Assembly (NCBI GenBank): GCA_905196835.1
Contig: CAJJWN010000004.1
Span: forward strand, 1 to 64,000
DNA length: 64,000 nucleotides
Source: an uncultured Prevotella sp.
GTDB lineage: Bacteria; Bacteroidota; Bacteroidia; Bacteroidales; Bacteroidaceae
Direction of reading: 5' to 3'
Part shown: in pieces, positions 11,735 to 63,205 of the stretch
Layout of the letters: the number at the start of each line of letters is the position of its first letter
Position numbering within the stretch: the stretch's first letter is position 1
Translations under genes and position numbers: made by a program
Notes under the pieces: model-generated
The model's database searches: none
Told to the model about the DNA's origin: nothing
Seen by the model: only the letters and a program-made list of their open reading frames with translations

Positions 11735-11945
11735 CAGGTCCGTCGGGATTTGATTTTACGTGCGGCGGGTAAAGCAAAATGAGGGAACAAGGCAAGGAGG
11801 AAGCGGAAAAGCCATAGGAGGTTCGTTTGTGTTGACAAGTTTAAAGAGCCTGTGAACTGATGGTTGTTAAGCGCAAAGGAATGACGCGCCTTGCAGGTTC
11901 GCTACAGCCTTAAATTTGCACGAGGAAGTCAATGGACGGCGGTGA
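11735..11945 (+). promoter_or_regulatory. Candidate single-strand DNA promoter unit, copy A0
   Basis: A rightward promoter (TTG 11891-11893, N17, TAAATTTG 11911-11918) is followed by a segment (11918-11932) complementary in parts to 11749-11763 (TTTGATTTTACGTGC): CGTGC pairs with GCACG, and TTGA pairs with the GTCAA side imperfectly. It has the organisation of A1 and A2 but is the most diverged copy. In the ssDNA-promoter model it would drive the small leftward gene at 11542-11685. Confidence 0.45.
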
Positions 11946-12059
11946 AAGCCAATTCGATGGTTAAGCAAATGTGCAACAAGGGAGGCATATACAAATACGA
12001 TAATAGAGATAATCCATCTGGTTTATAGTATATTGCACCAAAATGTCCCAAACTTTTTA

Positions 12060-12067
12060 TACCTTTG
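12060..12067 (+). promoter_or_regulatory. -7 box (TACCTTTG) ahead of the AlbA_2/HATPase gene
   Basis: A perfect Bacteroidota -7 box 16 bases before the ATG at 12084, implying a very short leader. No well-spaced -33 TTTG is visible, so activity may be weak or depend on an activator. Confidence 0.55.
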
Positions 12068-12083
12068 CATAAAATAGCATATT

Positions 12084-13577
12084 ATGTTGGCAAAAACAGA
12101 TATAAGAAATCTCCTTAACGATATAGAGAATGAACGTGTAGAACGCACTATCTCTACCTCAAACACGGACAAGTTCGCCCAAGCCGTATGCGCGTTTGCC
12201 AATGACATACGGAACAGTAACCAGCCCGGCTACCTGTTTATCGGAGCCAATGATGACGGTTCGCTGAACGGATTGAAAGTGACGGACGAATTGTTGCGCA
12301 ACCTCGCCGGACTCCGTTCAGACGGCAATATCCTTCCACAGCCAGCCTTAATGGTGTATAAAGAAAACTTCCCGGACGGAGATGTGGCTGTTGTGGAAGT
12401 GCAGCCCAGCCTTATGCCTCCTGTAAGATACAAAGGAAAGACGTGGATACGCATAGGAGCCAGAAAAGCGGTAGCCAATGAGGAAGAAGAACGGATACTT
12501 ACGGAAAAACGGCAATTCCATATCAGCACGTTTGATACCAAGCCATGCTTTGGTGCCACATTAGACGATTTGGACATACCCTTGTTCCAAAGCGAATATC
12601 TCCCCAAAGCCATCTCCCCGGAGATATTGAAAGACGACAAGAGGGATGTAGTGCAGCAACTGGCTTCATTGCGATTGTTCGACCGAAACTATAACTGTCC
12701 GACCAATGCCGGAATGTTGTTGCTCGGGCATAATCCACAGCCATATATCTTTGGCGCTTATATCCAGTATGTGCGTTTTGAAGGTTTGAACAGAGCAGCC
12801 AAAGTGGTCAAAGAAAACCGTTTTTCTGGCAACCTGATACAAATGCTGAAAGAATTGGATTCTTTTGTCAAATACACCATTGAAGCCAAACGTCCCGTTC
12901 TTGTATCAGCCTTGCGGGAAGAAGAACGGATAAACTACCCTTATATAGCCATACGTGAGTTGCTTATGAACTCAGTCATGCACCGCTCATACGAAGGGAG
13001 CAATGCCCCAACAAAGTTTTACGAGTATGCAGACCGCATCGAAATAGACAACCCCGGCAACTTATATGGCAAGGCCCGTATTGAGAATTTCCCCAATGAA
13101 AACGATTATCGCAATCCGGTAGTGGCCGAAGCCATGAAGACATTGGGGTATGTCAACAAGTTCGGACGTGGCATTAACATGGTGCAAGATGTACTGACCG
13201 AGAACGGCAACACCTCCGCGCAATTTGTCTTGGACGACATTACCACGTTCAAAGTTGTTGTGCGGAATGCAGAATATATACCTGAAAATGAGGAATACAA
13301 TAAGAATGTCAGTGGTGATGTCAGTGGTGATGTCAGTGGTGATGTCAGTGGTGATGTCAGTGGTGGTATCAAAACTCAAATTGCTGCTGCCAATGCCCGT
13401 AGAGATTCCATTATTAAATTAGTCAAGCAGAATAAGAACTATTCGGTTTCAAAGTTAGCCGAATTGTTGAATGTTTCTTCGCGTACTATATCGCGCGATA
13501 TAGAGAAACTGAAGACGGAAAAAAGAATCCAACGTGTAGGAGATGAAAACACGGGATATTGGATAGTATTGAATTAA
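12084..13577 (+). CDS. AlbA_2 / HATPase-type ATP-binding protein with C-terminal winged helix
   Basis: 497 residues. The N-terminal third is an AlbA_2-type (schlafen-like, PF04326) domain (VERTISTSNTDKFAQAVCAF ... GYLFIGANDDGSLNGL). The middle is a HATPase_c_4-like region (LLMNSVMHRSYEGS, RIEIDNPGNL). A VSGD tandem linker is followed by a helix-turn-helix (SVSKLAELLNVSSRTISRDIEKLK). Family members are annotated as ATP-binding or putative transcriptional regulators and are common in defence-rich islands; the activity here is unknown. The unknown gene at 13604 starts 26 bases after the stop, so the two probably form one operon. Both are more AT-rich than the transfer genes, suggesting later acquisition. 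Confidence 0.85.
   Translation: MLAKTDIRNLLNDIENERVERTISTSNTDKFAQAVCAFANDIRNSNQPGYLFIGANDDGSLNGLKVTDELLRNLAGLRSDGNILPQPALMVYKENFPDGDVAVVEVQPSLMPPVRYKGKTWIRIGARKAVANEEEERILTEKRQFHISTFDTKPCFGATLDDLDIPLFQSEYLPKAISPEILKDDKRDVVQQLASLRLFDRNYNCPTNAGMLLLGHNPQPYIFGAYIQYVRFEGLNRAAKVVKENRFSGNLIQMLKELDSFVKYTIEAKRPVLVSALREEERINYPYIAIRELLMNSVMHRSYEGSNAPTKFYEYADRIEIDNPGNLYGKARIENFPNENDYRNPVVAEAMKTLGYVNKFGRGINMVQDVLTENGNTSAQFVLDDITTFKVVVRNAEYIPENEEYNKNVSGDVSGDVSGDVSGDVSGGIKTQIAAANARRDSIIKLVKQNKNYSVSKLAELLNVSSRTISRDIEKLKTEKRIQRVGDENTGYWIVLN
13308..13367 (+). repeat. Five tandem 12-base units encoding VSGD
   Basis: Five in-frame copies of GTCAGTGGTGAT (the last ends GGT) lie inside the AlbA_2/HATPase gene between the ATPase region and the HTH. 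Because the unit is a multiple of three, copy-number slippage would change linker length without breaking the frame. Confidence 0.95.
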
Positions 13578-13603
13578 CTTGCAACTTATTAAGGACAAAG
13601 AAT

Positions 13604-25251: not shown

Positions 25252-27906
25252 ATGAACGAAAAATCATCCATCGAAAAGAACGCGGCACAGAAACAGGCCG
25301 GACTGCTGATACAAGCCATCAACGGTGCAGGAGAGGCCGGTAGATACTGGCTCAACCCGTCGGGCAAGACCCGACCGAGGTTTTATCCCAATGGAGTGTC
25401 TATAAGCCCCTTCAACGCCTTGGTCATGGCACTCGACTCTGACGCGAAAGGATGCAAGACCAACCTCTTCACCCTCTTCGCCGAAGCGAAGCAACGCGGG
25501 GAGCCGGTGCGCGAACACGAGAAAGGTGCGCCTTTCCTGTTCTACAACTGGAACAGGTACGTGAACCGCAACAACCCGGAGGACGTGATAGGCCGCCAAA
25601 CCTACCTGCAACTGGAGAAAAGCGAGCAGGAACGCTACAAGGGCATCCACAACCGGGAAGTCCGTACCGTGTTCAACATTGACCAGACCCTTTTGCCTAT
25701 GGTGGATGTGCAAGCCTATGAAGGCCTGTTGAAAAGGGACGGTGGCACCAGGGAACGCGGCTACGGGGAAAACGACGACCGCAAACTGCACATACGCATC
25801 AACGACTTCCTGCTGAAAATGCGCGACAATCTGGTACCTGTCCGCATGGACGGCAGCGGCGTGGCCCATTACGACAGCACGAGGGATGCCGTCTATGTAC
25901 CACGCCAAAAGGACTTCGAGCATTACCACGACTACGTGCAGGAGGTGTTCCGGCAGGTGGTGAGCGCCACCGGCCACCAGCAACGGCTGGCCCGCGAGGG
26001 CATGGTGATGAAAGACGGAAAAGCCCCGTCCGAAGAAGCGGTCAGGCAGGAACGGCTCATCGTGGAACTGGCCTCCGGCCTCAAGATGCTGGAGTTGGGC
26101 CTGCCCGCCCGTCTGAGAAGCGACAGCATGGCCCTGACCGACTATTGGACGAGGGAACTGAAAGAGAACCCGCAGCTTATTGACATCATCGAGAGCGACG
26201 TGAACAACGCCCTTGACGTGATACACAAGGCGGAACGCGGCGAGAAAATCGAATACGCCACGCACCGCAACCGGCGTGAAACCGCCAAGTTGGAAAAGGA
26301 ACAGCCTTTGTACCATTTCATCGCTGACGAGATAGCCAAGCATCCCGACAAGGAAAAAAAGACTTTCGTGGTGGTCAGGGACAATAACGGGAAAAGTGCC
26401 GATGTCATCCTCCCCGCAGGAGCCTCGCCGGAAGCGGAGAACGAAGTGCCGGGCATGTCAAAACAGCGCATACGGAACATACTGGGCAAGGAGGGCATCG
26501 AAAACGTGGCGTTCTACAACCCGGACGGCGCATGGGGCTACCATCCTGACGACCTGACCTTTGAAGGCAAGCAGGTCTCGGTGGCCAAGCTGCGGAACTG
26601 GTCGATGGAAACCCTTTCCACCTTAGACGTGTCCGAAGCCCTGAAACGTGCCGGCCAGGTACGCTTCGAGCAGGTGCAGATGATACAGGATGACGAAAAA
26701 CGCTGGGCCTTGTACATCAAGCCGGAAGGCAAGGCGGGGTACAGCGTCTATCCCGACAAGGACGACCTCAACCGTTTCTTCACGACCCTGAAACAGGCCA
26801 TGCAGAACATCTCCGCCGTGCGTGGCGAATTGGCCAGCAAGTATTACCTCCTGGCCGAAAGCCGTCCGGAACTCAAGGCAGACCTGTTCTCCACTCATGA
26901 GGAGGGCATCGACTTGAACCAAATCGAGCGTGTGTCCGTGTACAAGACCCGGACGGACGGCATACAATGCGCCGTCACCATCAACGGGGAGAAGTTGCCG
27001 CCGCGCAGTGTGACCCCGCAGCAATGGCAACGGATGTGGGTGGCCGACGACCCCGTAAAGTACAAGAAGCACCTTGCGGCCACCCTCTTTGCGGACGTTC
27101 TTCGGAAAGGACTGGCACAGGAACAGACGACGGGCGAGAAAGCGTCCGCAGACACGGACCAGAAGCAGACGGAAAAGGCGGCCGTCGACAATCCGGTAAG
27201 GAACGATTTTTCCATAAAAGATATTCCTGAATCCCAATATGAACGATACAAACAGCTTAAAGAGGAACAACCGGAAGCGATTGTTCTTTTCAAGCATGGA
27301 AACTGCTATTACTCTTCGATGTATGATGCGGAAACCATTGCAAACGAACTGAATCTGCCTCCGGAGAAAGAACGTGCCCCTTATCAGTCAGACAGGATTA
27401 TTCCTATATTCAACCATGATGACGAGCGGACAAGGCAGCAGATTCTCCGTTTACGTGCCTATGTCATAGAGTGCAATGCCGTTTCAAAAAAACAGTTGGA
27501 TGGAAAAGCCGGGATTACCACCGGACAAGATGAAGGCACACAATCTGGAAAAGACAGGAAAGCTACAGACAGTCTAAAAACAGATTCTTCCATTTTGGAA
27601 CAATGGAAGCAACTGAAAGAGAAACACCCAGATGCCGTCCTTCTGTTCCGAAAGGATGACAGTTATGAAGCCTACAAGGAAGATGCCGGAAAGGCCGGGA
27701 AGATATTGAACCTCGAAATCCAGCAGAGAGGCTGCACGGACGGAAGGGACATGGGAACAGTGGCCTTCCCGTCAAAAGACTTAGATATGTTCCTGCCCAA
27801 ACTGATACGTGCCGGATGCAGGGTGGCCATCTGCGACCAGATAGAGCCGAAGCAGGAACAACACTGGGAAAGGCTGGAAGAACAGGCCAGGGGAATGAAA
27901 CGCTGA
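25252..27906 (+). CDS. Polyvalent ArdC-like protein with two MutS-I-like C-terminal modules
   Basis: 884 residues. The first 250 or so resemble the ArdC N-terminal ssDNA-binding/anti-restriction domain (PNGVSISPFNALVMALDSDA, KGAPFLFYNWNRYV, VFNIDQT), but the HExxH zincin motif is replaced (HYHDYVQEVFRQVV). The middle carries DUF3945-type stretches. Near residues 660-745 and 781-875 are two copies of a MutS domain I-like module; the second is clear (LEQWKQLKEKHPDAVLLFRK ... RAGCRVAICDQIEP) and the first is diverged. MutS-I contacts mismatched DNA in MutS. Such multi-domain proteins are thought to protect incoming DNA; this one probably acts on ssDNA or unusual DNA. Confidence 0.8.
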   Translation: MNEKSSIEKNAAQKQAGLLIQAINGAGEAGRYWLNPSGKTRPRFYPNGVSISPFNALVMALDSDAKGCKTNLFTLFAEAKQRGEPVREHEKGAPFLFYNWNRYVNRNNPEDVIGRQTYLQLEKSEQERYKGIHNREVRTVFNIDQTLLPMVDVQAYEGLLKRDGGTRERGYGENDDRKLHIRINDFLLKMRDNLVPVRMDGSGVAHYDSTRDAVYVPRQKDFEHYHDYVQEVFRQVVSATGHQQRLAREGMVMKDGKAPSEEAVRQERLIVELASGLKMLELGLPARLRSDSMALTDYWTRELKENPQLIDIIESDVNNALDVIHKAERGEKIEYATHRNRRETAKLEKEQPLYHFIADEIAKHPDKEKKTFVVVRDNNGKSADVILPAGASPEAENEVPGMSKQRIRNILGKEGIENVAFYNPDGAWGYHPDDLTFEGKQVSVAKLRNWSMETLSTLDVSEALKRAGQVRFEQVQMIQDDEKRWALYIKPEGKAGYSVYPDKDDLNRFFTTLKQAMQNISAVRGELASKYYLLAESRPELKADLFSTHEEGIDLNQIERVSVYKTRTDGIQCAVTINGEKLPPRSVTPQQWQRMWVADDPVKYKKHLAATLFADVLRKGLAQEQTTGEKASADTDQKQTEKAAVDNPVRNDFSIKDIPESQYERYKQLKEEQPEAIVLFKHGNCYYSSMYDAETIANELNLPPEKERAPYQSDRIIPIFNHDDERTRQQILRLRAYVIECNAVSKKQLDGKAGITTGQDEGTQSGKDRKATDSLKTDSSILEQWKQLKEKHPDAVLLFRKDDSYEAYKEDAGKAGKILNLEIQQRGCTDGRDMGTVAFPSKDLDMFLPKLIRAGCRVAICDQIEPKQEQHWERLEEQARGMKR

Positions 27907-30563: not shown

Positions 30564-33048
30564 GTGCGCCAGTATTGGCTGCGTAATAAATATCTCTTTG
30601 GCAAGAGATTAGGTGAGGATTCGAATCACCTACTACCAACTGACTTATCCGTAGGGGAAACCCGATGGGGAGTGTAGCATGTCAGTAAAACCCTAAGTCA
30701 ACTAATTGCCATGTTGCTACTGAGGGGTGAGGTAGAAAGATAGATACAAGGATGAAACCTTGATTGGTTAAACGATAGTCAAGTGGCATACGCTGTGGCT
30801 GCGTCGGAAGGCAATTACAAACGACGTATCGTAACACCCTCATTCAAAACATCAGTCTGAGTGGCAAAAGAATCGGTTACGACACACTGCAATAAGTAGA
30901 AAAAGACGAAAGTCGCATCCGAAAATCTATCGTGCTAATAGTTATTACGTAACTAAACTGGGATTACCTAAATCGGGATGCCGAAAGGCTATGAATTATA
31001 GGTTCTGAATACCCGACATGGTAACGGAGCTCTCGTAGTAGTCCGAGCAAGGGAAAGCCTTGCACATGGCGAAGGAGAGCAGTTAATAACTTAATACAAA
31101 CAAAGGATAATGTGAGAGACATTATGAGAAATCCAGAGCAAGTATTAAACAATCTAATCGTTCACAGCAAAGTTTCGGATTACAAGTTCGAAAGGCTGTA
31201 TCGGAATCTATTCAATGAACAGATGTTCTATATTGCTTATCAGCGCATATATGCAAAGCCAGGCAATATGACACCTGGAGCAGATGGCAAAACTATAGAC
31301 CAAATGTCAACTCAAAGAATAGAAAGACTCATCGAAAGCCTCAAAAACGAGACTTACCAACCAGTTCCGGCAAGAAGAACGTATATACCAAAGAAAAACG
31401 GAAAACTCCGTCCTCTTGGTATTCCGTCCTTTGAGGATAAACTTGTGCAAGAGGTAACAAGAATGCTTCTTGAAGCCATATATGAAGGGCATTTTGAATG
31501 CACTTCTCACGGCTTTAGACCTTTCAAGAGTTGCCATACTGCAATGGATGACATCCAAAAACACTTCACTGGTGCGAAATGGTTTATCGAAGGAGACATA
31601 AAAGGTTTCTTTGATAATATTGACCATAATGTACTCATCGATATTCTCAAACTGAGAATTAGTGACGAACGTTTTCTACGACTAATCCGCAAGTTTCTCA
31701 ATGCTGGCTATATGGAGAAATGGACATATCACAAGACGTACTCGGGAACACCCCAAGGTGGAATCGTTAGCCCAATTTTGGCAAACATTTATCTTGACCA
31801 GTTCGATAAGTATATCAAGGAATATGCCGAAAACTTCAACACTGGAAAAGGCAGAAGGGTCAACCCCGAGTATAACCGTTTCTGCAACAAACGTAATGCA
31901 CTGAAACGCAAGCTTAAAAGCGAAATGGACGAATCTGTTAGACAACAACTAATGGACGAAATCCAAGCATTGAAAGCCAAAATGGTTACAATTCCGTACA
32001 ACATGGCAATGGATGAAAACTACAAACGAATGAAATATGTTCGTTATGCAGACGATTTCCTAATCGGAGTAATTGGCAGTAAAGAAGATTGCAAGAAGAT
32101 GAAAGAGGACATCACGATTTATATGCGTGATAAACTGAAGTTGGAACTTTCCGATGAAAAGACCTTAATCACTCATTCGCATGAACATGCTAAATTTCTC
32201 GGATTCGAAATCTCAGTCCAAAAGTCAAATACGCTACGAAGAAATAGCCTTGGCTTCACCCGTAGGTCTTTCCAAGGGAAGGTTGTCATATCGCTCTCTC
32301 CCGATAATGTCGAAAAGAAACTTTTGGCTCTAAAGGCCATAAGAATCAAGGACATTCAAGGAAGAAGATTATGGTGGCCCGAATCTCGTGGATATTTAGT
32401 CGGTAAGAAGGAAGAAGAAATCTTGATGCAATACAATCTTGAAATCAGAGGTTTCTACAATTATTTCTCTATTGCCAACAATATAGCTGCGGTAGGAAGC
32501 GGATTTGGCTATGCGATGAGGTTTAGCCTATACAAAACCCTTGCCAACAAGCACAACAGTACTATCAGTAAGGTAAGAAATAAATACCGAAAAGATAAGG
32601 ACTTTGTGATTCCCTACAAGGATAAGAATGGCAAAGAGAAATGTGTAGTGTTATACAATCAAGGCTTTAAGCGCCAAACTATCAACGATTTTCCCGAAGT
32701 GGACAATCTGCCAAATACTTGTTGGCTTCCTGAGCCAACTCTTGTTGACAGACTTAAAACTTCATGTTGCGAACTATGCGGTCAAACTGGCAATGTAGTG
32801 ATGCATCACGTGCGTAAACTCACACTTTTAAAGGGTGAGAACGAATGGGAAAAACTTATGCTCAAAAAGCGCAGGAAAACGTTAGTAGTATGCGAAACAT
32901 GCAATGCGAAAATCCAAAGAGCAAGTGAAAAATAGATTGATGTTATTAATGGAAAGCCGTATACATGGAGACATGTACGTACGGTTTGGGGGCAGATATT
33001 TGGAAACCTACCACCGAAAGGTGTCAAGGCGTCGAATATCGAGCCTAC
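30564..33048 (+). mobile_element. Complete group II intron (LtrB-like) in an ardC-type gene
   Basis: 2485 bases. The 5' end GTGCGCC matches the LtrB-type GUGCG start. The 3' end is ...GAGCCTAC, a normal AY end. Bases 30849-30855 (ACATCAG, EBS1) are an exact complement of the last seven exon bases 30557-30563 (CTGATGT, IBS1). A domain V hairpin lies at 32952-32988 (AAAGCCGT/ACGGTTT arms, AGC triad). The stretch 30960-31090 parallels the Lactococcus LtrB domain region before its ORF. All parts needed for splicing and retrohoming appear present; activity is inferred. Confidence 0.93.
31112..32935 (+). CDS. ltrA: Group II intron-encoded reverse transcriptase/maturase/endonuclease (LtrA family)
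   Basis: 607 residues if GTG 31112 is the start; ATG 31124 (MRNPEQVLNN) is an equally good choice. Reverse-transcriptase blocks are present: RPLGIPSFEDKLVQEV, HGFRPFKSCHTAMDDI, FIEGDIKGFFDNIDH, SGTPQGGIVSPILANI and the catalytic VRYADDF (about residue 310). The maturase X region follows. The C-terminus carries an HNH endonuclease (CCELCGQTGNVVMHH ... LVVCETCNAKIQ). Length and motif order match LtrA. It lies in intron domain IV. Confidence 0.96.
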   Translation: MRDIMRNPEQVLNNLIVHSKVSDYKFERLYRNLFNEQMFYIAYQRIYAKPGNMTPGADGKTIDQMSTQRIERLIESLKNETYQPVPARRTYIPKKNGKLRPLGIPSFEDKLVQEVTRMLLEAIYEGHFECTSHGFRPFKSCHTAMDDIQKHFTGAKWFIEGDIKGFFDNIDHNVLIDILKLRISDERFLRLIRKFLNAGYMEKWTYHKTYSGTPQGGIVSPILANIYLDQFDKYIKEYAENFNTGKGRRVNPEYNRFCNKRNALKRKLKSEMDESVRQQLMDEIQALKAKMVTIPYNMAMDENYKRMKYVRYADDFLIGVIGSKEDCKKMKEDITIYMRDKLKLELSDEKTLITHSHEHAKFLGFEISVQKSNTLRRNSLGFTRRSFQGKVVISLSPDNVEKKLLALKAIRIKDIQGRRLWWPESRGYLVGKKEEEILMQYNLEIRGFYNYFSIANNIAAVGSGFGYAMRFSLYKTLANKHNSTISKVRNKYRKDKDFVIPYKDKNGKEKCVVLYNQGFKRQTINDFPEVDNLPNTCWLPEPTLVDRLKTSCCELCGQTGNVVMHHVRKLTLLKGENEWEKLMLKKRRKTLVVCETCNAKIQRASEK

Positions 33049-34547
33049 TGCTCATGCACTGCGAGGACAAAGGATACAGGATACCCCGGTTCTGTACGTT
33101 TGATGCGGTGACGCGCATGAACGGCAAGACGGACAAGGAAGGCAATGACTTGCCGAGGGTGTCCGTCCTCCGTGGCGAGAAGTCCTTTCCGGTGATGCTG
33201 ACCACTTTCACCTGCATCGACAAGGAAACCAAGGAAAAAATCAAGTATGAGGACTACAAGAAGCTGAGCGAGGAAGAAAAGAGGCAGTACAATGTCTATC
33301 CCAAGATGCAGGCTTTCAGGGTGTTCAACGTAGACCAAACCAACCTGAAGGAAAGCCGCCCGGAACTCTATGAGAAACTGGCGAGGGAAAGCGGACTACG
33401 GAAACCCGGACAGCCGGGGGAACAGTTCAGCTTTGAGCCGGTGGACCGGATGATGCAGGAGGGGAAATGGGTATGCCCCATCCGCCAAGTGTACCAGAAC
33501 AGTGCCTATTATTCCATCAGCAAGGATGAGATTGTCGTGCCGGAAAAGGCGCAGTTCAAGGACGGCGAATCGTTCTACGGCACATTGTTCCATGAGATGA
33601 CGCACTCGACCGGGGCGGAAAGCCGCCTCGGACGTATCAAGCCCGCTGCCTTCGGGTCGGACGACTACGCCCGCGAGGAACTGGTGGCGGAACTTGGCAG
33701 CGCACTGGTGGCACAGCGATACGGCATGAGCCGGCATCTGAAGGAGGACAGCGCGGCTTATCTGAAATCCTGGCTCAGCAGTCTGAAAGAATCCCCGCAG
33801 TTCATCAAGACCACCCTGTTGGACGTGAAAAAGGCCACCTCCATGATGACCCAACACATCGACCGCATCGCGCAGGAACTGGAACAGGCCGTTAAGGAAA
33901 AGCAAGACGGACAGGAACAGGGAAAGATGTTCTATTCTTCCGTGGCCTACCTACAGTCCACCGACGACACTTCCAGGCTTGACACCCTCAAGGATAAAGG
34001 CGACTATGACAACCTTCTGAAACTGGCCAAGGAGTATTACGATGGCAACGGGATGGACGAGAAGTACACTTTTCGGTCGCCGTTACAGAACAAGGGTGAT
34101 GACCTGCTTGTCGAGGACAAGGACTTTGCCGTCGTGTACAACGGCAGCGTGGGCGGCACCTATGAGGTGATGCTCAAGTTCACGGAAGAGGATGTGCGCG
34201 ACCACATCCGACGTTACGGCACCGACCGGGCCAGCGAAGATGTAAAAGAAGTGGCGAAGGACATGGTGGCGGAGGAATTTTCAGCGATGGCAGACCGCCT
34301 GATGCCCGTCCTGGAAATGGAGAACGGGGAGGTGCTGCACCTTCAGTACAACCGGGACAAGGACACCATAGAAGTGGGGACGGCCACCAATGCCGGTCTA
34401 GCCGTCCGGCACAGCTTTGGCTATGACCACGGCTCCACCCTGGAAGCCAACCTGCAGGAAGTGAACGACCGCTTGTCGGAAATGGAGGAATACAAACAGG
34501 AACAGGAGGAAGCGGCCTATTCATCCGGCGGAGGATGGCACAGGTGA
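33049..34547 (+). CDS. ArdC-type antirestriction/zincin protein, exon 2
   Basis: About 499 residues after splicing. The rest of the ArdC N-terminal domain (LLMHCEDKGYRIPRFCTFDA, FPVMLTTFTCIDKETKEKI, AFRVFNVDQTNLKESRPELY) leads to an intact zincin motif (LFHEMTHSTGAESRLGR, HExxH). The C-terminal 200 residues resemble accessory stretches of polyvalent proteins. Unlike the 884-residue relative upstream, this copy keeps the metalloprotease motif. It is the last gene of the rightward run, followed by a strong hairpin. Without splicing only a truncated product would be made. Confidence 0.88.
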
Positions 34548-35649: not shown

Positions 35650-36135
35650 TCAAATATGATAATCAATGACACCGCCGATATAAAGCAATGTGCCGGGCTT
35701 CATGTTGCTGACGGCGCACATGAACTCATACGACTCTTCCGCATAGCTTTGTGTGCCTCCCTCGTCCATATAGAACTGCCACCCCGTATGCAACGGGTTC
35801 TTCAGTTGCTTTACAAGCTGGTAAACGGGGCCAACGAACTTGTATGCGTTTCCTGTCGTGATTTCACACGCTCCCAATCGTATATTGCTAACAAATTTTT
35901 CCGTCCATTCTTCTATACCCCCGTTATAACGAAGTACATTCTCCGCAACAAGTTCAAACATTCCGGTTGGCAGGATTTCATCCACCAAATAGGAAATACA
36001 TTCTTGCCGTTCCTCATCGTCAATCTCCGAACAATAATCGTAATCCGTGCCGTCACCCTGTTCAATGGTGTTTTCTGTAAGGCGGCAATCCTCGTCCACC
36101 TTGGAAGTTGTGATTTGAAAAATCTTTCCGTGCAT
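35650..36135 (-). CDS. Acidic protein, unknown, first gene behind promoter unit A1
   Basis: 161 residues (MHGKIFQITTSKVDEDCRLT ... LLYIGGVIDYHI) with an acidic N-terminal third (EQGDGTDYDYCSEIDDEERQ). No family recognised. It begins about 40 bases from structured unit A1 and is followed by three more small leftward genes. Confidence 0.75.
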   Translation of the reverse strand: MHGKIFQITTSKVDEDCRLTENTIEQGDGTDYDYCSEIDDEERQECISYLVDEILPTGMFELVAENVLRYNGGIEEWTEKFVSNIRLGACEITTGNAYKFVGPVYQLVKQLKNPLHTGWQFYMDEGGTQSYAEESYEFMCAVSNMKPGTLLYIGGVIDYHI

Positions 36136-44375: not shown

Positions 44376-44565
44376 CTTCACGGCCTGCAACGGGATTATT
44401 TTTCTGCCCCGTCAAAGGCAAAAGGACAAAAGGGCAAATCTGACGGCGGAAATACGCTTTGTACGCAAAGGAAGATTTCCGGCAGGCACCCGGAGGGCGG
44501 AGAAACGGATTTGCATATTGGCCGCCGGCCGTTAATTTTGCAGGAAAATAATCCGTGCAGGTCCG
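44376..44565 (+). promoter_or_regulatory. Candidate single-strand DNA promoter unit, copy B1
   Basis: A consensus rightward promoter: TTTG 44510-44513, N19, TAATTTTG 44533-44540. Directly after it GCAGGAAAATAAT (44540-44552) pairs over 13 bases (one G-T) with 44395-44407. Outer arms CCTGCA (44384-44389) and TGCAGG (44556-44561) extend the stem. The -33 box pairs within GCAAATC/GATTTGC, while the -7 box faces unpaired sequence. The apex is hairpin 44448-44480 (GGAAATACG-stem-GAAGATTTCC). Confidence 0.7.
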
Positions 44566-44781: not shown

Positions 44782-46479
44782 TCACGCTGCGGCCTCTTCG
44801 GCTTGTCGCTGTTCCCCGGATGGCTGCGGTTCTTCGGCCTGTTCCGCTTCCTTGGCCAGCAAGGCCGCTTTCTTTTCCTCTATGCGCTGGTGACGCTTCT
44901 CATAGACTTCATCATACCCGCTCTTGATGTCGGCCAATGTTTCGGGCATGTGCTTCCGTGCAAAGTCAAGCAACAGGGAGGCCACTGCATTGCCGCCACG
45001 GGCTTCCTTGAACTTGGCAATCAGAAAATCCCTGCGGATGACGGCTTTTGCCTTGGCCGTGAGGTTGGCGACAATGTTCATTTTCTCCTCGTCTGTAAGG
45101 TATGGCACTTCAGTGTCAATGCCGAGTGTCTGATAATGCTCTTTACGGAGGTCGGCCAACAGAAAGAAGTATATCATCTTGTCCTCGTCCGCACCAAACT
45201 TGGTTTCCGTGATGTCTGCTTCCAAAATGCGTTTCTTTGTGTCCTCCACCGTCTTTTCAAGGGCTATCTCCTTGTTGCGCTTGTCTTGCTTCTCCAGCTT
45301 CTCAATGGGTGAGGCTGGCTTCCCGTCCGTGCCGTCATTCCGCTCTGCCTTTTTATAACACAAAGTGATGTCGTTCCGCTCCACCCTCGCATAGAGTATG
45401 ATTTCCCCTGCATCGGCCTTGCTGTTTATTTCTTCGCACCTCTCGTCATAAACGGCCATGTCCTGCCCGTAATCCTTGCAGGCCTGCTCGTACTCCTCTT
45501 GGGTGTCGTATTCGTCCGTCTGCGGTTCTTCGGGGCGGCTGGGATAGGCTGACAGATAGCCTTGCATATTTTCCACCACATATCCCATGCCTGCAAGACG
45601 CTCCACGGCTTTGTCGTTGCTGCCGTATGCTTCACGGCAAAGGACGACGGTAGGCTGCCGCTCCATAACCTGCATGGCCTTCTCCACCAAAAACGACACG
45701 TTCTTTTCCTCCAGACAACTCCGCTTGGCGCAATTTCCACATCCCTCCTCGTGGAACAGGCTCATATTGTTGGTGTTAAACGGACATGTGGCGCATGGGG
45801 TCTTGTCGAACAGATAATGGCGCAGGTCGGTGGTGAAGTCACGCTCGATGTTCCTGGCCACCTCGGATGCTTTCAGTCCTCGCCAACTGCCATATACGCC
45901 CTCTTTCAAATGACGGTCATACACCTCTTGCTGGATGTCCTCTCCGTAACGGCAGATTTCACTTGCCACGCTGACGGACAGTTCGTCCGTTTCCAGCAAT
46001 TCGGCGATTTCGGGTATCAATGCCGTAAACTTAAGGCGTGTGCGGATGTAATCCTCCGACTTGCCGAACTGCACAGCTAAAGACTGAACGTCATAACACC
46101 CGCCCTCCAGCAACTTCTGATAGGCTCTGGCTTCCTCCATAGGGGTAACATCCTTGCGCTGGAGGTTTTCCGTCACGGCCATTTCCACGGCTGCGTCATC
46201 CGTGATGTCAAGGACTACCGCCGGGATTTCATCCGTTCCTGCCATGACTGACGCACGGTATCTGCGCTCGCCGAACACAATCTCAAACAGGCCGGTGTCC
46301 GCGATGGGGCGCACTCCGATAGGCTGCAGGACACCCTGCTGGCGAATGCTGTCGGCAAGTTCGCCAAGACTTTCCTCGTCAAAATGCTTGCGTGGGTTGA
46401 AATCGCTCGGACGGATGTCTGCCAATGCCAACGATACGATGTTTCTCTCTGCTACGGTCTGAATGTCTTTAGTTTCCAT
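44782..46479 (-). CDS. ParB-like (Spo0J/KorB-type N-terminal) protein with cysteine cluster
   Basis: 565 residues. The N-terminal ParB/Srx domain (IRPSDFNPRKHFDEESLGEL, FGERRYRAS, VTENLQRKDVTPMEEARAY) is followed by an HTH (YDVQSLAVQFGKSEDYIRTR). A Cys cluster near residue 235 (CATCPFNTNN ... GCGNCAKRSC) and a long charged C-terminal half follow. ParB-like proteins of mobile elements serve partition or, in leading regions, act as early-expressed regulators or nucleases; which applies here cannot be told. It is alone behind unit B2. Confidence 0.88.
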   Translation of the reverse strand: METKDIQTVAERNIVSLALADIRPSDFNPRKHFDEESLGELADSIRQQGVLQPIGVRPIADTGLFEIVFGERRYRASVMAGTDEIPAVVLDITDDAAVEMAVTENLQRKDVTPMEEARAYQKLLEGGCYDVQSLAVQFGKSEDYIRTRLKFTALIPEIAELLETDELSVSVASEICRYGEDIQQEVYDRHLKEGVYGSWRGLKASEVARNIERDFTTDLRHYLFDKTPCATCPFNTNNMSLFHEEGCGNCAKRSCLEEKNVSFLVEKAMQVMERQPTVVLCREAYGSNDKAVERLAGMGYVVENMQGYLSAYPSRPEEPQTDEYDTQEEYEQACKDYGQDMAVYDERCEEINSKADAGEIILYARVERNDITLCYKKAERNDGTDGKPASPIEKLEKQDKRNKEIALEKTVEDTKKRILEADITETKFGADEDKMIYFFLLADLRKEHYQTLGIDTEVPYLTDEEKMNIVANLTAKAKAVIRRDFLIAKFKEARGGNAVASLLLDFARKHMPETLADIKSGYDEVYEKRHQRIEEKKAALLAKEAEQAEEPQPSGEQRQAEEAAA

Positions 46480-46539: not shown

Positions 46540-46725
46540 TCACGGCCTGCAACGGGGTTATTTTTCTGCCCAATCAAAGGGCCAAAGGACATAAAGGCAA
46601 ATCTGACGGCGGAAATACGCTTTGTACGCAAAGGAAGATTTCCGGCAGGCACCTTTGGCGGAACCGGATTTGCTGACTGGACGCAGCCCGTTACCTTTGC
46701 GGAAAAATAATCCGTGGCTGGCCAT
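46540..46725 (+). promoter_or_regulatory. Candidate single-strand DNA promoter unit, copy B2
   Basis: Exact consensus rightward promoter: TTTG 46669-46672, N19, TACCTTTG 46692-46699. GCGGAAAAATAA (46699-46710) pairs over 12 bases (one G-T) with TTATTTTTCTGC (46558-46569). GATTTGC of the -33 region (46667-46673) pairs with GCAAATC (46597-46603). The apex is hairpin 46611-46643, identical to that of B1. The leftward gene starts at 46479. Confidence 0.7.
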
Positions 46726-50732: not shown

Positions 50733-52190
50733 TCAGCGTTTGGGCTTCTTGCCGGTGGCCGGACGCATCATGCGCTGTGCCATCATCATGCAACGGTATG
50801 CCCAGCGGCGGTCGTCCTCGTCATCGTCACGCCTCCATTCCAGGCCGTTCCCTCCGCCGCCCCCTCCCTGGCCTTCGGCAAAAGTAGTGGCGGCATCCAC
50901 GTAACCGAAGAACAGCAGCGTAGCGCAATGGAGGACTTCCGCACCCTGCTCGGAAATGCTCTGCATGAGCGTTCCGTCAAAAGTGCCGCGCGCTTCCGCG
51001 CCAGACCGTGCCATCAGTTCCCGGTGTTCGCCGACCAGACGTTCCACCAGCACATCCTTCAACAGACCGTCCACCTTCGCGTGGATGTCGCGTGAATACC
51101 GGTAGGCTTCCTCGCGCAGTTCCCCGGTGCGGTCTTGGATGGCATCCATGTCCTTTTGGAGCAAGGCCAGTTGCCGGTCGGCGGCTTCCAGCTTTCCCTG
51201 CTTGTCCGCCAGCCGCTCCCGGACACAGGAAAGCTCCTTTTCCAACCGGGATATTTCTGCGGCCAAGGACATGGCGTCGCCGCTTTGCGACTGCAGTTCA
51301 CGGCGGTATGCCGCCAGTTGCGCCTCTTTCTCCGCCTTCTCCTTCTTCAGGTTCTCCACCATCGTGTTCAAGCCTTTCACCCTGCGCTCTGCCAGGCGTA
51401 TTTCCACACGGAGGTCCGCCAAAGCCTTCCGGTGCTGCTCTATCTGCTCCTCGATGGAAGAGCATTCCTCATTAAGGTGGCGGCGGTATTCCTCCGTGGA
51501 GCGGTGCTTGGCCCCGGTGATGGCGACACTGGAGCCACGGTTGAGTTCCCATTTCCGGTTTATTGCGGCCAGTTCGTTGTGAAGCTCGCGGAAGCGTCTG
51601 CTGCCCTCGTACATGTCCTTGCCGGAAAAGATTTTCTTGTAGGCGAACTCGCCGTCCTTGATTGGCAGGAGGGTGCAATGTATGTGCGGATTCAATTCGT
51701 CCAAGTGTACATAGAAGCCGACGATGTTCTCCTCGCCGAATTTGCCGGACACGAAAGCGTAGATGTCCTGCGCCCATTTCTCTATCTCCGGCTTTCTTTT
51801 GACCGATGAATTGTCCGCGCCCTTGTCAAAGTCCACCTTCTGGCCTCCGAAGGCCAGTTCGCGCATACGGGATTGCGAGCCGCCAAAGATAAAGTTGGCG
51901 ACGGTGCGGTACTTGGGTTCCGCCAGCCCCTCGTTCCTGTCACGGATGCCGCGACTGCGCAGGTTCTCCGCCATCCGCTCCGGGATGCTTTTCGATTTGT
52001 CCACGGGCTGCACCTTGCCGCCTTTGACGACTTCAAAGTTCAGGTGTTCGCGCGTGGGGTCATAATTGCCCTTGCTGACGGCGTGTTCCCAGCCTTTTTC
52101 CGTCCACCTGCGCTGGTGTTCGTCGCTTTGGGCGGTCGTGATGCCCGCCGACGGGCGGATGTCCATCACCTGTTTTGCGTTTACTGCCAT
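50733..52190 (-). CDS. MobV-family relaxase (Pre/Mob)
   Basis: 485 residues from ATG 52190 (MAVNAKQVMDIRPSAGITTA). Conserved motifs include HLNFEVVKGG (about residue 65) and the metal-binding FYVHLDELNPHIHC (about 167). A long coiled coil and a Gly-rich tail follow. MobV relaxases nick oriT and stay covalently on the 5' end of the transferred strand. The catalytic residue in this family is debated (His or Tyr). The gene upstream (52402) and the intergenic hairpins fit a mobilization locus. Confidence 0.92.
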   Translation of the reverse strand: MAVNAKQVMDIRPSAGITTAQSDEHQRRWTEKGWEHAVSKGNYDPTREHLNFEVVKGGKVQPVDKSKSIPERMAENLRSRGIRDRNEGLAEPKYRTVANFIFGGSQSRMRELAFGGQKVDFDKGADNSSVKRKPEIEKWAQDIYAFVSGKFGEENIVGFYVHLDELNPHIHCTLLPIKDGEFAYKKIFSGKDMYEGSRRFRELHNELAAINRKWELNRGSSVAITGAKHRSTEEYRRHLNEECSSIEEQIEQHRKALADLRVEIRLAERRVKGLNTMVENLKKEKAEKEAQLAAYRRELQSQSGDAMSLAAEISRLEKELSCVRERLADKQGKLEAADRQLALLQKDMDAIQDRTGELREEAYRYSRDIHAKVDGLLKDVLVERLVGEHRELMARSGAEARGTFDGTLMQSISEQGAEVLHCATLLFFGYVDAATTFAEGQGGGGGGNGLEWRRDDDEDDRRWAYRCMMMAQRMMRPATGKKPKR

Positions 52191-52401
52191 ATCGTCTGTA
52201 TCTGTTTTGCGGACAACCGCACTGTCCCAGCTTGCTGCCCTGTCGGACAGCCCCTCCCATCGCCGTCGGCGCATGGGGTATTAGGCTACCCACTTCCCTT
52301 TGTTCGTGGCAGGCGGGCGAGCCCGTCGCGCCATGCCACCGGCAAGCCTGTAAGGGGCATATTACGCCTTATAACAGGTGGTTGTCCAAGGTCTCATACT
52401 T
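52191..52401. other. Candidate origin of transfer (oriT) with inverted repeats
   Basis: The space between the relaxase and the mobilization accessory gene holds GGGTA-TTAGGC-TACCC (around 52275-52290). It also holds a longer hairpin with GTGGCA/TGCCAC outer and CGGGC/GCCCG inner arms (around 52306-52339). oriT commonly lies beside the relaxase gene. No exact match to a known MobV nick site was recognised. Confidence 0.45.
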
Positions 52402-59171: not shown

Positions 59172-59669
59172 TCATACACTGCCGTACAGGTTGGTTACAT
59201 CCAGTCCATGCAACTTTGCCTTCTTACACGTATAGTACGTGCCGCCCTTGGGCTGTCCGTCAAAATAGGCTATCACGCCGGTTGAACGCTCCAGCATATA
59301 GTCGTTCCGCTTCAAAAGGCAGCCGTCATAGTAATATCCGCTCAACACGACCGTTCCGTCCACGTTGGCAAGGATGTCCTCGTACAGTTCACGGTCTTTC
59401 TCCGTCCAGCGGTCGGCCTGCCCCCTGAACGGCACAACGGCTGTCACTCTCAAGTCGGGCAGCTCGCATTGCAGCGAAAGGGCGGCTGTGGCCGCCAGCG
59501 TGTCAAAGCCGAGGGCCATGCCGCAATAAAAATTGCGCACGCCCCTTGAATATGCCTTTATTATCTCCACCCTCAACACCTGCTTCAACTCCGTCCGCTT
59601 TTCTTGCGGAACAAGGCGGTGTCCGCTGAAGCATACGGACAACTCCTTGATGTCTTTTGTCTTTTCCAT
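59172..59669 (-). CDS. SLOG-superfamily protein (DUF1273/YpsA-like)
   Basis: 165 residues. Rossmann-like fold with the SLOG signatures VCFSGHR (residues 12-18) and YCGMALGFDTLAA (about 48-60), then VVPFRGQADRW and GVIAYFDGQPKGGT. SLOG domains bind nucleotides or modified nucleotides and occur in anti-phage and conflict systems. Just 2 bases separate it from the upstream phosphoribosyltransferase, so the two probably act together on nucleotide metabolism in the recipient. Confidence 0.88.
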   Translation of the reverse strand: MEKTKDIKELSVCFSGHRLVPQEKRTELKQVLRVEIIKAYSRGVRNFYCGMALGFDTLAATAALSLQCELPDLRVTAVVPFRGQADRWTEKDRELYEDILANVDGTVVLSGYYYDGCLLKRNDYMLERSTGVIAYFDGQPKGGTYYTCKKAKLHGLDVTNLYGSV

Positions 59670-59671
59670 AA

Positions 59672-60250
59672 TCAGTTCTCTTTTTTATATCTATAATGTG
59701 TCCTGCTCAAGAAAACGCCTCCCACCACTTTCGCGCCCAGCCGTTCAAGCCGGTCTGCGAACATCCCATAGCTTTGCCCCGTGGAAATCACATCGTCAAA
59801 GACGCAGATGGTCTTTCCGTTGATTAGCCCTGCATCGAATGTCACCGTGTCAACCATAACGGGTGTCTTGCCGTGGCGGTGCTCATGCAAGGCCGGGCGT
59901 TCCCCCGAAACGTGAACGAATGAAAAGCCGTTGGCAATGCCGCAAAGCTCGCTCACACGCTGACAGAAATGCTTGTAACGGCTCTCGTTCTTTTCCTCGC
60001 TGCTCGCCGGAACGCAGATAAAGGTCATGTCTTTAACCTTATCCCCGTATTGGCAGACGAGATACCCTGCCGTCATCCGTGCCACACGCTCGGTGGCTTC
60101 TTCCTTCGCGTCCTTGAACGCCCACACGAGATTGTGCGCCTTGATGGCGTCCTCCCCGACGTTGCGGATGCGTACCGGAAAATACTTGCAGAACCAAACC
60201 TGCGGCTTGGCCAACTGCCTTTTGATGCTCTCATTGATTGCCTGTGCCAT
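59672..60250 (-). CDS. Phosphoribosyltransferase-domain protein
   Basis: 192 residues. The type I PRTase signature is CVFDDVISTGQS (about residue 150), with flanking strands DMTFICVPASS and KVVGGVFLSRT. Substrate unknown; nucleobase or DNA-linked roles are possible. It is the first gene behind unit B3, upstream of SLOG, and the intact relative of the broken gene at 48323. Confidence 0.88.
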   Translation of the reverse strand: MAQAINESIKRQLAKPQVWFCKYFPVRIRNVGEDAIKAHNLVWAFKDAKEEATERVARMTAGYLVCQYGDKVKDMTFICVPASSEEKNESRYKHFCQRVSELCGIANGFSFVHVSGERPALHEHRHGKTPVMVDTVTFDAGLINGKTICVFDDVISTGQSYGMFADRLERLGAKVVGGVFLSRTHYRYKKEN

Positions 60251-60279: not shown

Positions 60280-60470
60280 CCTTTCAGCTTGCTCAAGGGA
60301 TATTTTTTGCATAGGGAGTGACGGCGGCAATACGGCAAGGCAGTCAAGGGAAATACGCTCCTGAACGAAGTCCCGGAGGAAGATTTCCCGCAGAAACACC
60401 GTGCCTGTGCTTGCCATTTGCAGACAGGACGGCACTATTTTTGCAAGAAATATCCTTTAGGGCAATGCTG
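60280..60470 (+). promoter_or_regulatory. Candidate single-strand DNA promoter unit, copy B3
   Basis: Rightward -7 box TATTTTTG (60436-60443); the -33 is less clear (TTG 60411, N22). TGCAAGAAATATCC (60442-60455) pairs over 14 bases (one G-T) with 60298-60311. AGTG/CACT pairing continues beyond the -7 box, leaving it in a bubble. Apical hairpin 60348-60389 has the flanks GGAAATACG and GAAGATTTCC, but its inner stem is CTCC/GGAG instead of CTTTG/CAAAG. Confidence 0.68.
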
Positions 60471-61027: not shown

Positions 61028-61041
61028 GTGGGATGGCAGGA

Positions 61042-61425
61042 TTATTGCTTGCCTTTCTTCTTCTCCGCCTTTTTCTGCTCGGCAGGAGCCTCTTCTTCTT
61101 CGGGAACGGGATAGAACTTGGTGGCGACCATGATGACGCGATTGTGCTTTACGCCGTCCTTGTCGGTCCACTCTTCGGGCTTGAAATATCCCTCGAAAGT
61201 GAGCAGCGCGCCTTTGGCCAACTGGTCGAATGATTCCGTATGCTCGTTCTTGCGCCATACTTCCATATTGACGAAAGCCGATACGCGCTTGGTTTCATCG
61301 CCGTTGGTTTCCTGGCGGCCGATTGCCAAGGGGAAACGGGCTACGCTTGCATTGGTGAACTGGCGGATTTCTGCGTCCTTGCCTACGAAACCGGATACTG
61401 TGAAGATGTTTTGAAACTTTTTCAT
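61042..61425 (-). CDS. ssb: Single-stranded DNA-binding protein
   Basis: 127 residues. A single OB fold (FTVSGFVGKDAEIRQFTNAS, RFPLAIGR, FVNMEVWRKN, LLTFEGYFKPEEWTDKDGVK) is followed by a charged tail (EEEEAPAEQKKAEKKKGKQ) without the usual DDDIPF end. It would coat the entering strand in the recipient and is a classic leading-region gene. It stands alone between unit B4 and its own terminator. Confidence 0.92.
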   Translation of the reverse strand: MKKFQNIFTVSGFVGKDAEIRQFTNASVARFPLAIGRQETNGDETKRVSAFVNMEVWRKNEHTESFDQLAKGALLTFEGYFKPEEWTDKDGVKHNRVIMVATKFYPVPEEEEAPAEQKKAEKKKGKQ

Positions 61426-61449
61426 AATGAATTTTTTTAGAAGTGAAAC

Positions 61450-61650
61450 TTAATTTTTACATGCAAGGACAAGCAGGCCCGTATCAATGTGGACAAGCCA
61501 TGAAAATCGGGCTGAATACTCTTTATTTTGTGCAGGAAAATAAAGGAAGATTCCGGACTATTTTATTGGCAGGAGTGCAACGCCCACACAAGATGGCCAT
61601 TCGTAGCCATCGAAGCGGGACGCTAACTTTGCATCGGAAAAATGAGTGGC
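61450..61650 (+). promoter_or_regulatory. Candidate single-strand DNA promoter unit, copy B4
   Basis: Rightward -7 box TAACTTTG (61624-61631). TTGCAT and AAAAAT just after it pair with ATTTTT and ATGCAA at 61453-61466. The apical hairpin 61514-61553 has a perfect 9-base inner stem (CTTTATTTT/AAAATAAAG) inside GAATACT and GAAGATTC. The unit lies 25-30 bases from the ssb start. Confidence 0.6.
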
Positions 61651-62167
61651 TTCTCAAAAGCACAATTCAGAAAAGTGAAGGTAAGCACTTCACGCGGTTT
61701 TGCTGCAAGGGCCATCCGCCTGTTCAGGCAAGCTGCTGCGTTTCCGGCAACCGGCATAAAAGCTGTGGAACAGGCGTTGAAAGCTATCGGGCCGTATTGT
61801 CTGTATGGAGGCGCAAGAAAGCGCATGGTTCGACCGGCATAAGCGGGATGTTTCCTGCGGAGGGAAAGCCCGAAGTGTCCTGCCGGCCAAAAGAAAAAGG
61901 CGGAAGCGCAACGGCATGGTCGCCGGTTCTGTCCCCCGATAAAGGAAGGGGGGGGTGGAAAAGGCGAAAGGCAAAATCCGGCATTCCTTAAAGCGGAATG
62001 GATGCCTTCCAGCGAGCGGAACAGTGTTTATAAAAGGAAATCACGCAACCGGGAAGGCGGTGCGTATAATATAAAAGGAATAATGGTCAAGACTATAAAA
62101 GGCTATAGGCGGCTGAATGGACGGTGTGGAAGCCATCCACACCATCCATCCCGGCTTTGAGGAAAGG
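61651..62167. other. Intergenic stretch with repeats, no recognised gene
   Basis: It holds the palindrome GCCTGTTCAGGC (61718-61729, also at 60903) and three TATAAAAG words (62029, 62070, 62094). An open frame at 61443-61991 overlaps unit B4 and is not called. Confidence 0.4.
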
Positions 62168-62479
62168 TCAATCGCCAAAGCCCCATTCCGTAATAGCTAT
62201 TTCCTCGTTATTCCCGATGCCGCTTATTGGCTCGCATATCAATGTGCCGAAGAAATTTACTACAACGCAGCCGTTCTTTACGGTTGCCGGTTCCGTATCG
62301 TCATCGTCCGCATGGCGGAGTTGATACCAAGTCTTGCCTTGCGGCAAGGTTTCCACGGAAATCCTCAAGTCGATGAACTCGCCCTCGACGGTCAATCCGT
62401 TTTCCAATGTCAGGCACATTGGCCTCTTGTCTTCATTACTGTAATCATACAACATAGCAGTCCATTTTATAAGGGTCAA
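62168..62479 (-). CDS. Small acidic protein, unknown
   Basis: 103 residues (MTLIKWTAMLYDYSNEDKRP ... EEIAITEWGFGD), acidic and beta-rich. It overlaps the upstream gene stop by 4 bases (coupling). Last gene of the three-gene set behind unit B5. Confidence 0.75.
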   Translation of the reverse strand: MTLIKWTAMLYDYSNEDKRPMCLTLENGLTVEGEFIDLRISVETLPQGKTWYQLRHADDDDTEPATVKNGCVVVNFFGTLICEPISGIGNNEEIAITEWGFGD

Positions 62480-62694
62480 TCAAATACCAGCACTTCATCA
62501 CGGCCTCTTACCACCTCCTTGCCGTTTATCAGCTTCACGACAATCTCCCGTCCGTAATCCCATACCACTTCTCCGTCCGTATATCCCTTGTACGGCTCCA
62601 GCAGCGTACAGCTACAGCCGATGATGTCCGTTTCATTGTCATATCCGCACATAGTCCTGTCGTTTTTCATGGTTTTCAGCACTTGACATCCCAT
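62476..62694 (-). CDS. Small acidic protein, unknown
   Basis: 72 residues (MGCQVLKTMKNDRTMCGYDN ... GRDEVLVFD). It overlaps both neighbours by a few bases, so the three genes form a tightly coupled unit. Confidence 0.72.
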   Translation of the reverse strand: MGCQVLKTMKNDRTMCGYDNETDIIGCSCTLLEPYKGYTDGEVVWDYGREIVVKLINGKEVVRGRDEVLVFD

Positions 62695-62972
62695 TCTCCG
62701 TTTTTGAAAACCCTGAAGCTCACATATTCATTACAAAGCTCGTGGGTCAACACCCTGATGTAAATGTCGTTCTTGTCCTCCAAAAGGGAAATCATTTTGT
62801 CTATCGTTTCTTCGGGGTAATCCCATTTTGAGGAGAACTCGCAGTCAAGGCCATTCTCCAGCCTGTTTACGTAACAATCACAAAAGTTCTCTTCCAGATA
62901 GTCCTCGACCTTTTTAAGGTCGTTTCCGTTCTTTGTCTCCGCATAGAACAGATAGGTCGCATAGTTTGCCAT
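62676..62972 (-). CDS. Small acidic protein, unknown, first gene behind unit B5
   Basis: 98 residues (MANYATYLFYAETKNGNDLK ... FRVFKNGEWDVKC), alpha/beta, acidic. No family recognised. Position behind a structured promoter unit fits an early leading-region product. Confidence 0.75.
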   Translation of the reverse strand: MANYATYLFYAETKNGNDLKKVEDYLEENFCDCYVNRLENGLDCEFSSKWDYPEETIDKMISLLEDKNDIYIRVLTHELCNEYVSFRVFKNGEWDVKC

Positions 62973-63019
62973 AATCTCCAGTTTTTAGGTTTATTCATAT
63001 CCCTCATGTAGTTCTGCTA

Positions 63020-63205
63020 CTTTTGGGCTTGACTATAATTTTGTCGCCTTGAAAGGTTCCATGCTGCTCCGGCAAGGTTTCGGGACGAAATACTACCTCC
63101 CAAGGCGGAGGTGGAGATTTTGGCTATGAACCGCAAGGCACCGACCTTGCACGGAAGCATGGCATGGGAGTTACCTTTGCGGCACAATTATGTCAAGCTG
63201 CCCGG
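63020..63205 (+). promoter_or_regulatory. Candidate single-strand DNA promoter unit, copy B5
   Basis: Rightward promoter TTG 63147-63149, N22, TACCTTTG 63172-63179. The next 20 bases (63179-63198) pair with 63027-63047 with one bulge and about two non-pairs (TTGAC/GTCAA, ATAATT/AATTAT, CGC/GCG). The apical hairpin 63087-63121 keeps the flanks GAAATACT and GGAGATTTT but has a different, perfect 6-base inner stem ACCTCC/GGAGGT. Confidence 0.65.

Follow-up and report, generated by a model that had tools for sequence, protein, structure and literature searches.

The F plasmid promoter Frpo is reportedly used for both transcription and primer RNA synthesis, as the title of a 1997 paper by Masai and Arai has it. 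The F stem-loops Frpo1 and Frpo2 carry −10 and −35 boxes, and their deletion removes the early expression of the genes downstream, according to the section of PMC9849209 that treats them. In the parts of the literature consulted, single-stranded DNA (ssDNA) promoters either belonged to enterobacterial plasmids or had been searched for using the E. coli consensus; a literature search covering papers without their supplements found none that joins ssDNA promoters with Bacteroides. Here, we analyzed a 64,000 nucleotide (nt) stretch of an uncultured Prevotella sp. (contig CAJJWN010000004.1, positions 1 to 64,000; the window), which is part of a Bacteroidales-type mobile element encoding MobV, ArdC-type, toprim, ParB, helicase/N6-methylase, SSB and SLOG proteins. 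Eight related sequence units, termed U1 to U8 (Table 1), lie in this stretch, and seven of them are very probably Frpo-like ssDNA promoters with a Bacteroidota consensus, which would fire the adjacent leftward gene as long as the transferred strand is single-stranded.

The initial annotation had described each unit as a rightward TTG/TTTG plus TAnnTTTG promoter located 25–70 bases upstream of a leftward gene and complementary to sequence on the gene side, so that a folded plus strand would form a long hairpin. The rightward TAnnTTTG elements were found where it had placed them in all eight units. The complete arrangement TTG-N17-22-TAnnTTTG, which we take to be the Bacteroidota −33/−7 promoter consensus, is present in seven of the eight (U1–U6 and U8), while the TTG at −33 distance is not found in U7. 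Complementarity to sequence on the leftward side was detected in all units, and the pairings quoted for U4, U5 and U6 are real. The distance to the gene, measured from unit edge to start codon, applies to U2–U8 and not to U1. Plus-strand DNA folds were compared with 150 dinucleotide shuffles per unit, which bore out the hairpin for U2 to U8 (z = −3.8, −3.5, −3.7, −3.5, −3.0, −2.4 and −6.9, with 0, 1, 0, 0, 1, 4 and 0 of the 150 shuffles folding as well) and failed to do so for U1. Wider fold windows gave z values of −5.9 for U4 and −3.6 for U2, with 0 of 200 shuffles as good for each. The sequence itself shows that the leftward unit genes have the folded strand as their template.

As judged from sequence, the unit family is widespread in Bacteroidales mobile elements, with many copies in each. 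A geometry scan was run for TAnnTTTG elements with a duplex starting at the last G and a partner 100–165 nt upstream, using 91 loci (2.1 Mb) turned so that the helicase gene lies on the plus strand (the ParB gene in five plasmid loci). At −11 kcal/mol, the opposite strand had 76 hits and the same strand 10, from 1030 and 837 motifs, respectively; stricter cut-offs gave 52 opposite versus 2 same at −14 kcal/mol and 24 versus 0 at −16 kcal/mol. In mobV neighborhoods of up to 40 kb (20 genomes, locus L093 and the window), 73 hits lie opposite to mobV and 10 on its strand, from 400 and 296 motifs; these counts include near-duplicate genomes, and the scan misses U7 and counts U1. Altogether, 177 raw and 98 non-redundant hits were obtained from all loci and the window, the latter certainly including chance cases. 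An ATG open reading frame (ORF) of at least 60 codons follows 120–300 nt behind, on the other strand, in 81 of the 98 (62 of these at 190–250 nt), and 17 have no ORF behind them.

A covariance model matched in all 15 helicase-bearing genomes searched, 12 of which had supplied rows to the model, with up to 24 matches per genome at E ≤ 0.01 and 108 hits in total at E ≤ 0.001. Of these 108 units, 79 form 27 multi-unit clusters, every one of which is strand-uniform. Within 60 kb of mobV, 61 of 63 hits (E ≤ 0.001; 27 mobV places, excluding mobV matches that were weak or incomplete and one located on a unit-free contig) are oriented opposite to mobV, and 42 of the 63 lie on its start-codon side. When the order was sampled evenly, a hit at E ≤ 0.001 was obtained in 10 of 149 genomes, including G004, which had fed the model. 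Homologues of the helicase were found by an alignment search, single-sequence scans of the genome and viral contigs having been unsuccessful; MobV homologues are present in 28 of 29 helicase-bearing genomes.

Pairing was investigated further in 67 non-redundant units. Positions −8 to −3 before the TA and the 30-nt stretch following the 5' arm are predicted to form a distal stem with a mean pairing probability of 0.64, compared to 0.12 in controls in which the interior was shuffled and the arms were kept; probabilities above 0.5 were reached by 73% of real and 8% of shuffled units. The −33 side pairs with a mean probability of 0.50 versus 0.16 after interior shuffling (above 0.5: 54% versus 8%). 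Neither of these two pairings served to select the 67 units. Within TAnnTTTG, the pairing profile falls to 0.36–0.57 at positions +1 to +5 and reaches 0.95 at the last G; such a dip between paired flanks indicates two stems with the −7 element in the loop between them. Full pairing of the −7 box was examined as a possible rule for the family and did not hold: a complement to the unit's own nnTTT is present just behind the 5' arm in 14 of 81 units, with a mean of 7.5 and a maximum of 14 in 500 permuted-box controls. In the helicase-type alignment, part of the −7 box does pair (mean probability about 0.6), and in this subgroup the −33 TTG pairs with CAA (C-G in 25/25, A-T in 25/25 and A-T in 24/25).

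Two alignments were assembled. Alignment A3 holds 20 of the 25 distinct helicase-upstream rows, leaving out L018 (masked), L019, L022, L027 (different layout) and L036 (a near copy of L021); alignment A4 holds 19 of these 20 (not L028), U5 and five units from the geometry scan, and is for this last reason partly selected for pairing. The initial annotation had proposed to look for covariation in homologues, and covariation is present. In 25 aligned units and a named structure of 50 pairs, 24 pairs show two-sided change and 86.9% of cells are paired; 87 cells are compensatory compared to a shuffled mean of 28, and none of 500 shuffles reaches any of five measures. Shifting by a single column cuts pairing to 51% (slid controls at most 50.9%), a control that leans in favor of the structure since the latter was derived from the same sequences. 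Consensus folding of the helicase-type alignment yielded only the apical stem on either strand with DNA parameters, and 26 pairs, 9 of them with two-sided change, with RNA parameters; averaged pair probabilities were used in its place.

To compare promoter content, genes with an upstream gap of at least 150 nt were divided into 46 unit genes and 320 others. Ordinary leftward promoters had been named by the initial annotation as the observation that would speak against ssDNA use, and a full sense promoter (TTG-N17-24-TAnnTTTG) was found in 0 of the 46 unit genes versus 44 of the 320 others (Fisher P = 0.003). A sense TAnnTTTG alone is present in 5/46 and 101/320, respectively (P = 0.003). In the window, no sense TAnnTTTG was detected within 500 nt of six of the seven unit genes, and for the U8 gene one lies at 467 nt; the DUF1848 gene, in contrast, is without a unit and carries one at 35 nt.

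Units located directly upstream of start codons occupy the usual place of structured 5' leaders, and they could be riboswitch- or attenuator-like elements of leftward mRNAs made from ordinary leftward promoters. The strand that folds is informative here: an mRNA leader would give a bias towards the mRNA strand and a cruciform no bias at all. In 20 helicase-upstream regions (U4 and 19 relatives, chosen by gene context) the promoter strand was more stable than its complement in all 20, with DNA as well as RNA parameters, and this difference went beyond the mean of 60 shuffles in 19 (mean z −2.6; L028 +0.5). Among pairs supported by folds of both strands, wobbles also favor the promoter strand, with G.T versus A.C cells at 36 to 14 and, with a stricter cut, 24 to 5. 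The bias speaks against both structures, and a cruciform is disfavored. The complement strand does fold somewhat better than shuffles, as a leader would; yet the missing full sense promoters do not fit a leader, and apart from the group II intron at 32952–33048 no Rfam model matched at its gathering score. We consider leaders very unlikely.

The same strand and hairpin evidence would fit equally well if the units were primarily single-strand origins, with the hairpin promoter serving to prime synthesis of the complementary strand and gene expression coming second, and the primer RNA synthesis named in the 1997 title would agree with such a role. Many units per element, each before a gene and mostly at the spacing given above, do not suit this explanation, and the lack of full sense promoters points to gene expression; we regard it as very unlikely. 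The rightward promoter, which presumably conforms to the Bacteroidota consensus, could also fire on double-stranded DNA (dsDNA) and yield an antisense or regulatory RNA, the complementarity being incidental. All of the sequence with which the start region pairs is located upstream of the promoter. An RNA made from this promoter would therefore lack the hairpin, yet the pairing covaries, which makes this explanation very unlikely.

The direction of transfer was assessed from a candidate origin of transfer (oriT) beside mobV. The strand opposite mobV reads a hairpin and then GTATTAGGCT. Of 32 mobV-upstream rows, 25 distinct ones of sufficient length were compared. All 25 loci have the core AGCnTAAT(A)C in common, and a hairpin of varying sequence lies directly before it in 23 of 25 predicted folds, as judged by eye; it is not seen in L114 and is offset in L115. 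A further inverted repeat, GGGCTTGCCC, is located some 30 nt away and was not seen in L094, L118, L119 and L120. Relaxases usually have the hairpin first and then the nick. This layout suggests that the plus strand of the window, which is the template strand of the unit genes, is the transferred strand and that it would enter rightwards, with the SSB region first. U6–U8 would thus lie on the leading side, about 8–11 kb from the candidate oriT, as would the 42 of 63 model hits on the start-codon side of mobV. In pMV158, the experimental model for MobV, the nick at 3595/3596 is located upstream of mobM and IR1 is placed 8 nt upstream of the nick in the section of PMC5863519 concerned; a mapped nick for a Bacteroidales MobV was not found in the literature search.

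The motif TATAAAAGG is present 13 times on the plus strand of the window (0.37 expected) and not at all on the minus strand, and 9 of the 13 copies are found within 150 nt 3' of a −7 element. In 22 mobV neighborhoods including the window, it is skewed 73 to 3 towards the same strand; the most strand-skewed 8-mer of these neighborhoods is TATAAAAG (122 to 17).

In the proposed mechanism, the folded plus strand would form a proximal stem that begins at the last G of TAnnTTTG and includes the likely start site, and a distal stem on the −33 side, with the −7 element in the loop between them, an arrangement that would resemble a promoter already partly open. This imperfect duplex would admit RNA polymerase, which would initiate close to the hairpin base and then leave the duplex for the single-stranded 5' side, where it would have the template strand of the leftward gene before it. 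The resulting mRNAs would encode SSB, ParB, the helicase-methylase and small proteins without known function. Once the complementary strand has been made, the hairpin would be lost, the promoter would point away from the gene and expression would stop. This interpretation is supported by shuffle-beating folds in seven of eight units, by the covariation and by the lack of full sense promoters, and further by the bias towards a stabler promoter strand, the strand uniformity of the clusters and the layout at the candidate oriT.

Several observations weigh against it. Base composition alone favors the promoter strand, and beyond composition the strand difference is below z = −2 in 13 of the 20 regions; the complement strand also beats its shuffles (mean z −2.2 versus −3.8 for the promoter strand). 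Taken singly, the window units show a modest promoter-strand bias, with a difference of z −0.4 to −3.0 for U2–U8 and 0 for U1. As a whole, the U1 fold does not surpass shuffled sequence (z +1.05), with 132 of 150 shuffles folding as well, although its arms and promoter match, and the nearest leftward ORF starts at 10995, about 740 nt away. By eye, U1 resembles a unit of L093 at 22005, beside which lies a gene without a tblastn match in the window; U1 is probably a decayed copy without a gene. U7 lacks its −33 TTG, and five of the 46 unit genes do have a sense TAnnTTTG, without TTG. U2–U5 would lie on the trailing side of the candidate oriT and would accordingly enter last, not early; moreover, mobM of pMV158 lies 3' of the nick on the nicked strand, a layout opposite to that of the candidate oriT. 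Finally, many relatives are near-copies, so the counts are not independent events.

With these points included, we think it probable that the units represent a second, independently evolved class of ssDNA promoter in Bacteroidota, characterized by a two-stem hairpin with a pre-opened −7 loop, placed before many establishment genes of large MobV elements. The whole gene set would then be run only from the single-stranded transfer intermediate, and TATAAAAGG would be specific to the transferred strand. If the units work, incoming single strands came to be used for gene expression on at least two occasions, in phyla whose promoter consensus sequences differ, and Bacteroidales elements have an early-expression program that can be predicted from sequence. 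The genes behind the units provide a ready list of candidate establishment and anti-defense genes, the covariance model can be used to find further units, and asking whether the promoter strand is the stabler one offers a cheap strand test for other phyla.

The positions of the units and of the genes around them are listed in Table 1. The true start of MobV probably lies some 25 codons inside the listed ORF, many homologue alignments beginning near residue 24–31. For SSB, the NCBIfam score of 53.0 is just under the cut-off of 53.95. The product of the U6 gene has a match to the PADLOC ShosT model (E = 4e-14) and a weak one to a phosphoribosyltransferase domain; it is possibly a defense-related protein. 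In the annotation of a Bacteroides finegoldii plasmid record, SSB, LPD11, MobV and OmpA genes occur in an order similar to that of the window, and U4 had no DNA match in the plasmid collection. The Bacteroides uniformis plasmid pBuniCL06T06-1 contains a unit with a stem of about 24 bp (L003:9420–9590) in front of a DUF2958 gene; the element around it has other mobilization genes in its annotation (BfmA/BtgA, DUF5712). Outside the unit-bearing gene set, two rightward genes for ArdC-like/zincin proteins are located at 25252–27906 and 32904–34547, the former product with a MutS domain I match. A group II intron with reverse transcriptase (31112–33048; domain V match 32952–33048) lies amid the mobile-element genes.

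Table 1. Units, genes and further features of the window. Empty cells: no entry.
Feature	Position	Strand	5' arm	TTG	−7 element	3' arm	Remarks
U1	11730–11942	+	11730–11764	11891	TAAATTTG 11911–11918	11917–11942	no gene
U2	36183–36392	+	36183–36215	36341	TAGCTTTG 36361–36368	36367–36392	
U3	38924–39125	+	38924–38949	39074	TAGCTTTG 39094–39101	39100–39125	
U4	44381–44564	+	44381–44408	44511	TAATTTTG 44533–44540	44539–44564	
U5	46543–46723	+	46543–46570	46670	TACCTTTG 46692–46699	46698–46723	
U6	60288–60466	+	60288–60312	60411	TATTTTTG 60436–60443	60442–60466	
U7	61438–61655	+	61438–61466		TAACTTTG 61624–61631	61630–61655	no TTG at −33
U8	63026–63199	+	63026–63048	63147	TACCTTTG 63172–63179	63178–63199	
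U2 gene	35650–36135	−					161 aa; no family found
U3 gene	38234–38866	−					210 aa; no family found
N6-methylase/SNF2-type helicase gene	39355–44340	−					1661 aa; behind U4; units also upstream of the helicase gene in relatives
ParB-family gene	44782–46479	−					behind U5
MobV relaxase gene	50733–52274	−					NCBIfam MobV above its cut-off
Candidate oriT	52256–52287	+					hairpin 52256–52277, then conserved GTATTAGGCT 52278–52287; beside mobV
SLOG/YpsA gene	59172–59669	−					close behind the U6 gene
U6 gene	59672–60250	−					
Single-strand binding protein (SSB) gene	61042–61425	−					Pfam SSB above cut-off; behind U7
U8 gene	62676–62972	−					98 aa
TATAAAAGG, 13 copies	36430–62102	+					starts 36430, 36486, 39163, 39187, 39209, 39247, 44653, 44676, 46995, 60526, 62029, 62070, 62094

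Repeated regulatory sequences of establishment genes have also been described for pLS20 plasmids as EGeRS1, and an ssDNA promoter was considered there too (PMC8708921). In the part of that paper concerned with this question, the authors dismiss this possibility on two grounds: the non-template strand is the one transferred, and the predicted structure contains no promoter. The units differ from EGeRS1 on both points, since the promoter lies in the predicted structure and the transferred strand would be the template. Samuel et al. (2024; PMC11541004) described Frpo' and Frpo* candidates, which resemble the units as hairpin promoters predicted in silico before leading-region genes; unlike the units, they were sought by TTGACA/TATAAT boxes and BLAST to known Frpo, with homology to known Frpo/ssi set at E ≤ 1e-6. 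The string 'Bacteroid' is absent from the main texts of PMC11541004 and PMC12826799. Comparison of the 98 units with positions 48–68 kb of F gave no hit at E ≤ 1e-3 (best E 0.004).

The closest likeness is to Frpo1 and Frpo2 of F and ssi of ColIb-P9, where a single-strand stem-loop with a promoter is located before ssb and other leading genes, much as the units are predicted to place one before SSB and further genes. The leading stretch of F carries methylase, SSB, ParB-family and psiB genes in one direction, which parallels the SSB, ParB-family and methylase genes behind the units, and when one strand of the region upstream of F ssb was put through the fold test used for the units, it gave z = −5.2. 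The units differ in using the −33/−7 Bacteroidota consensus and not −35/−10 (TTGACA/TATAAT), in having the −7 element in a loop between two stems, and in their far larger number per element, with copies on the trailing side as well. With Frpo and ssi, seven of the eight window units share a hairpin predicted for one strand, with the promoter in its 3' arm and pointing away from the gene on dsDNA. Thus, on the points that can be computed the units are Frpo-like; by sequence and promoter consensus they fall outside the Frpo family, with which they are likely convergent.

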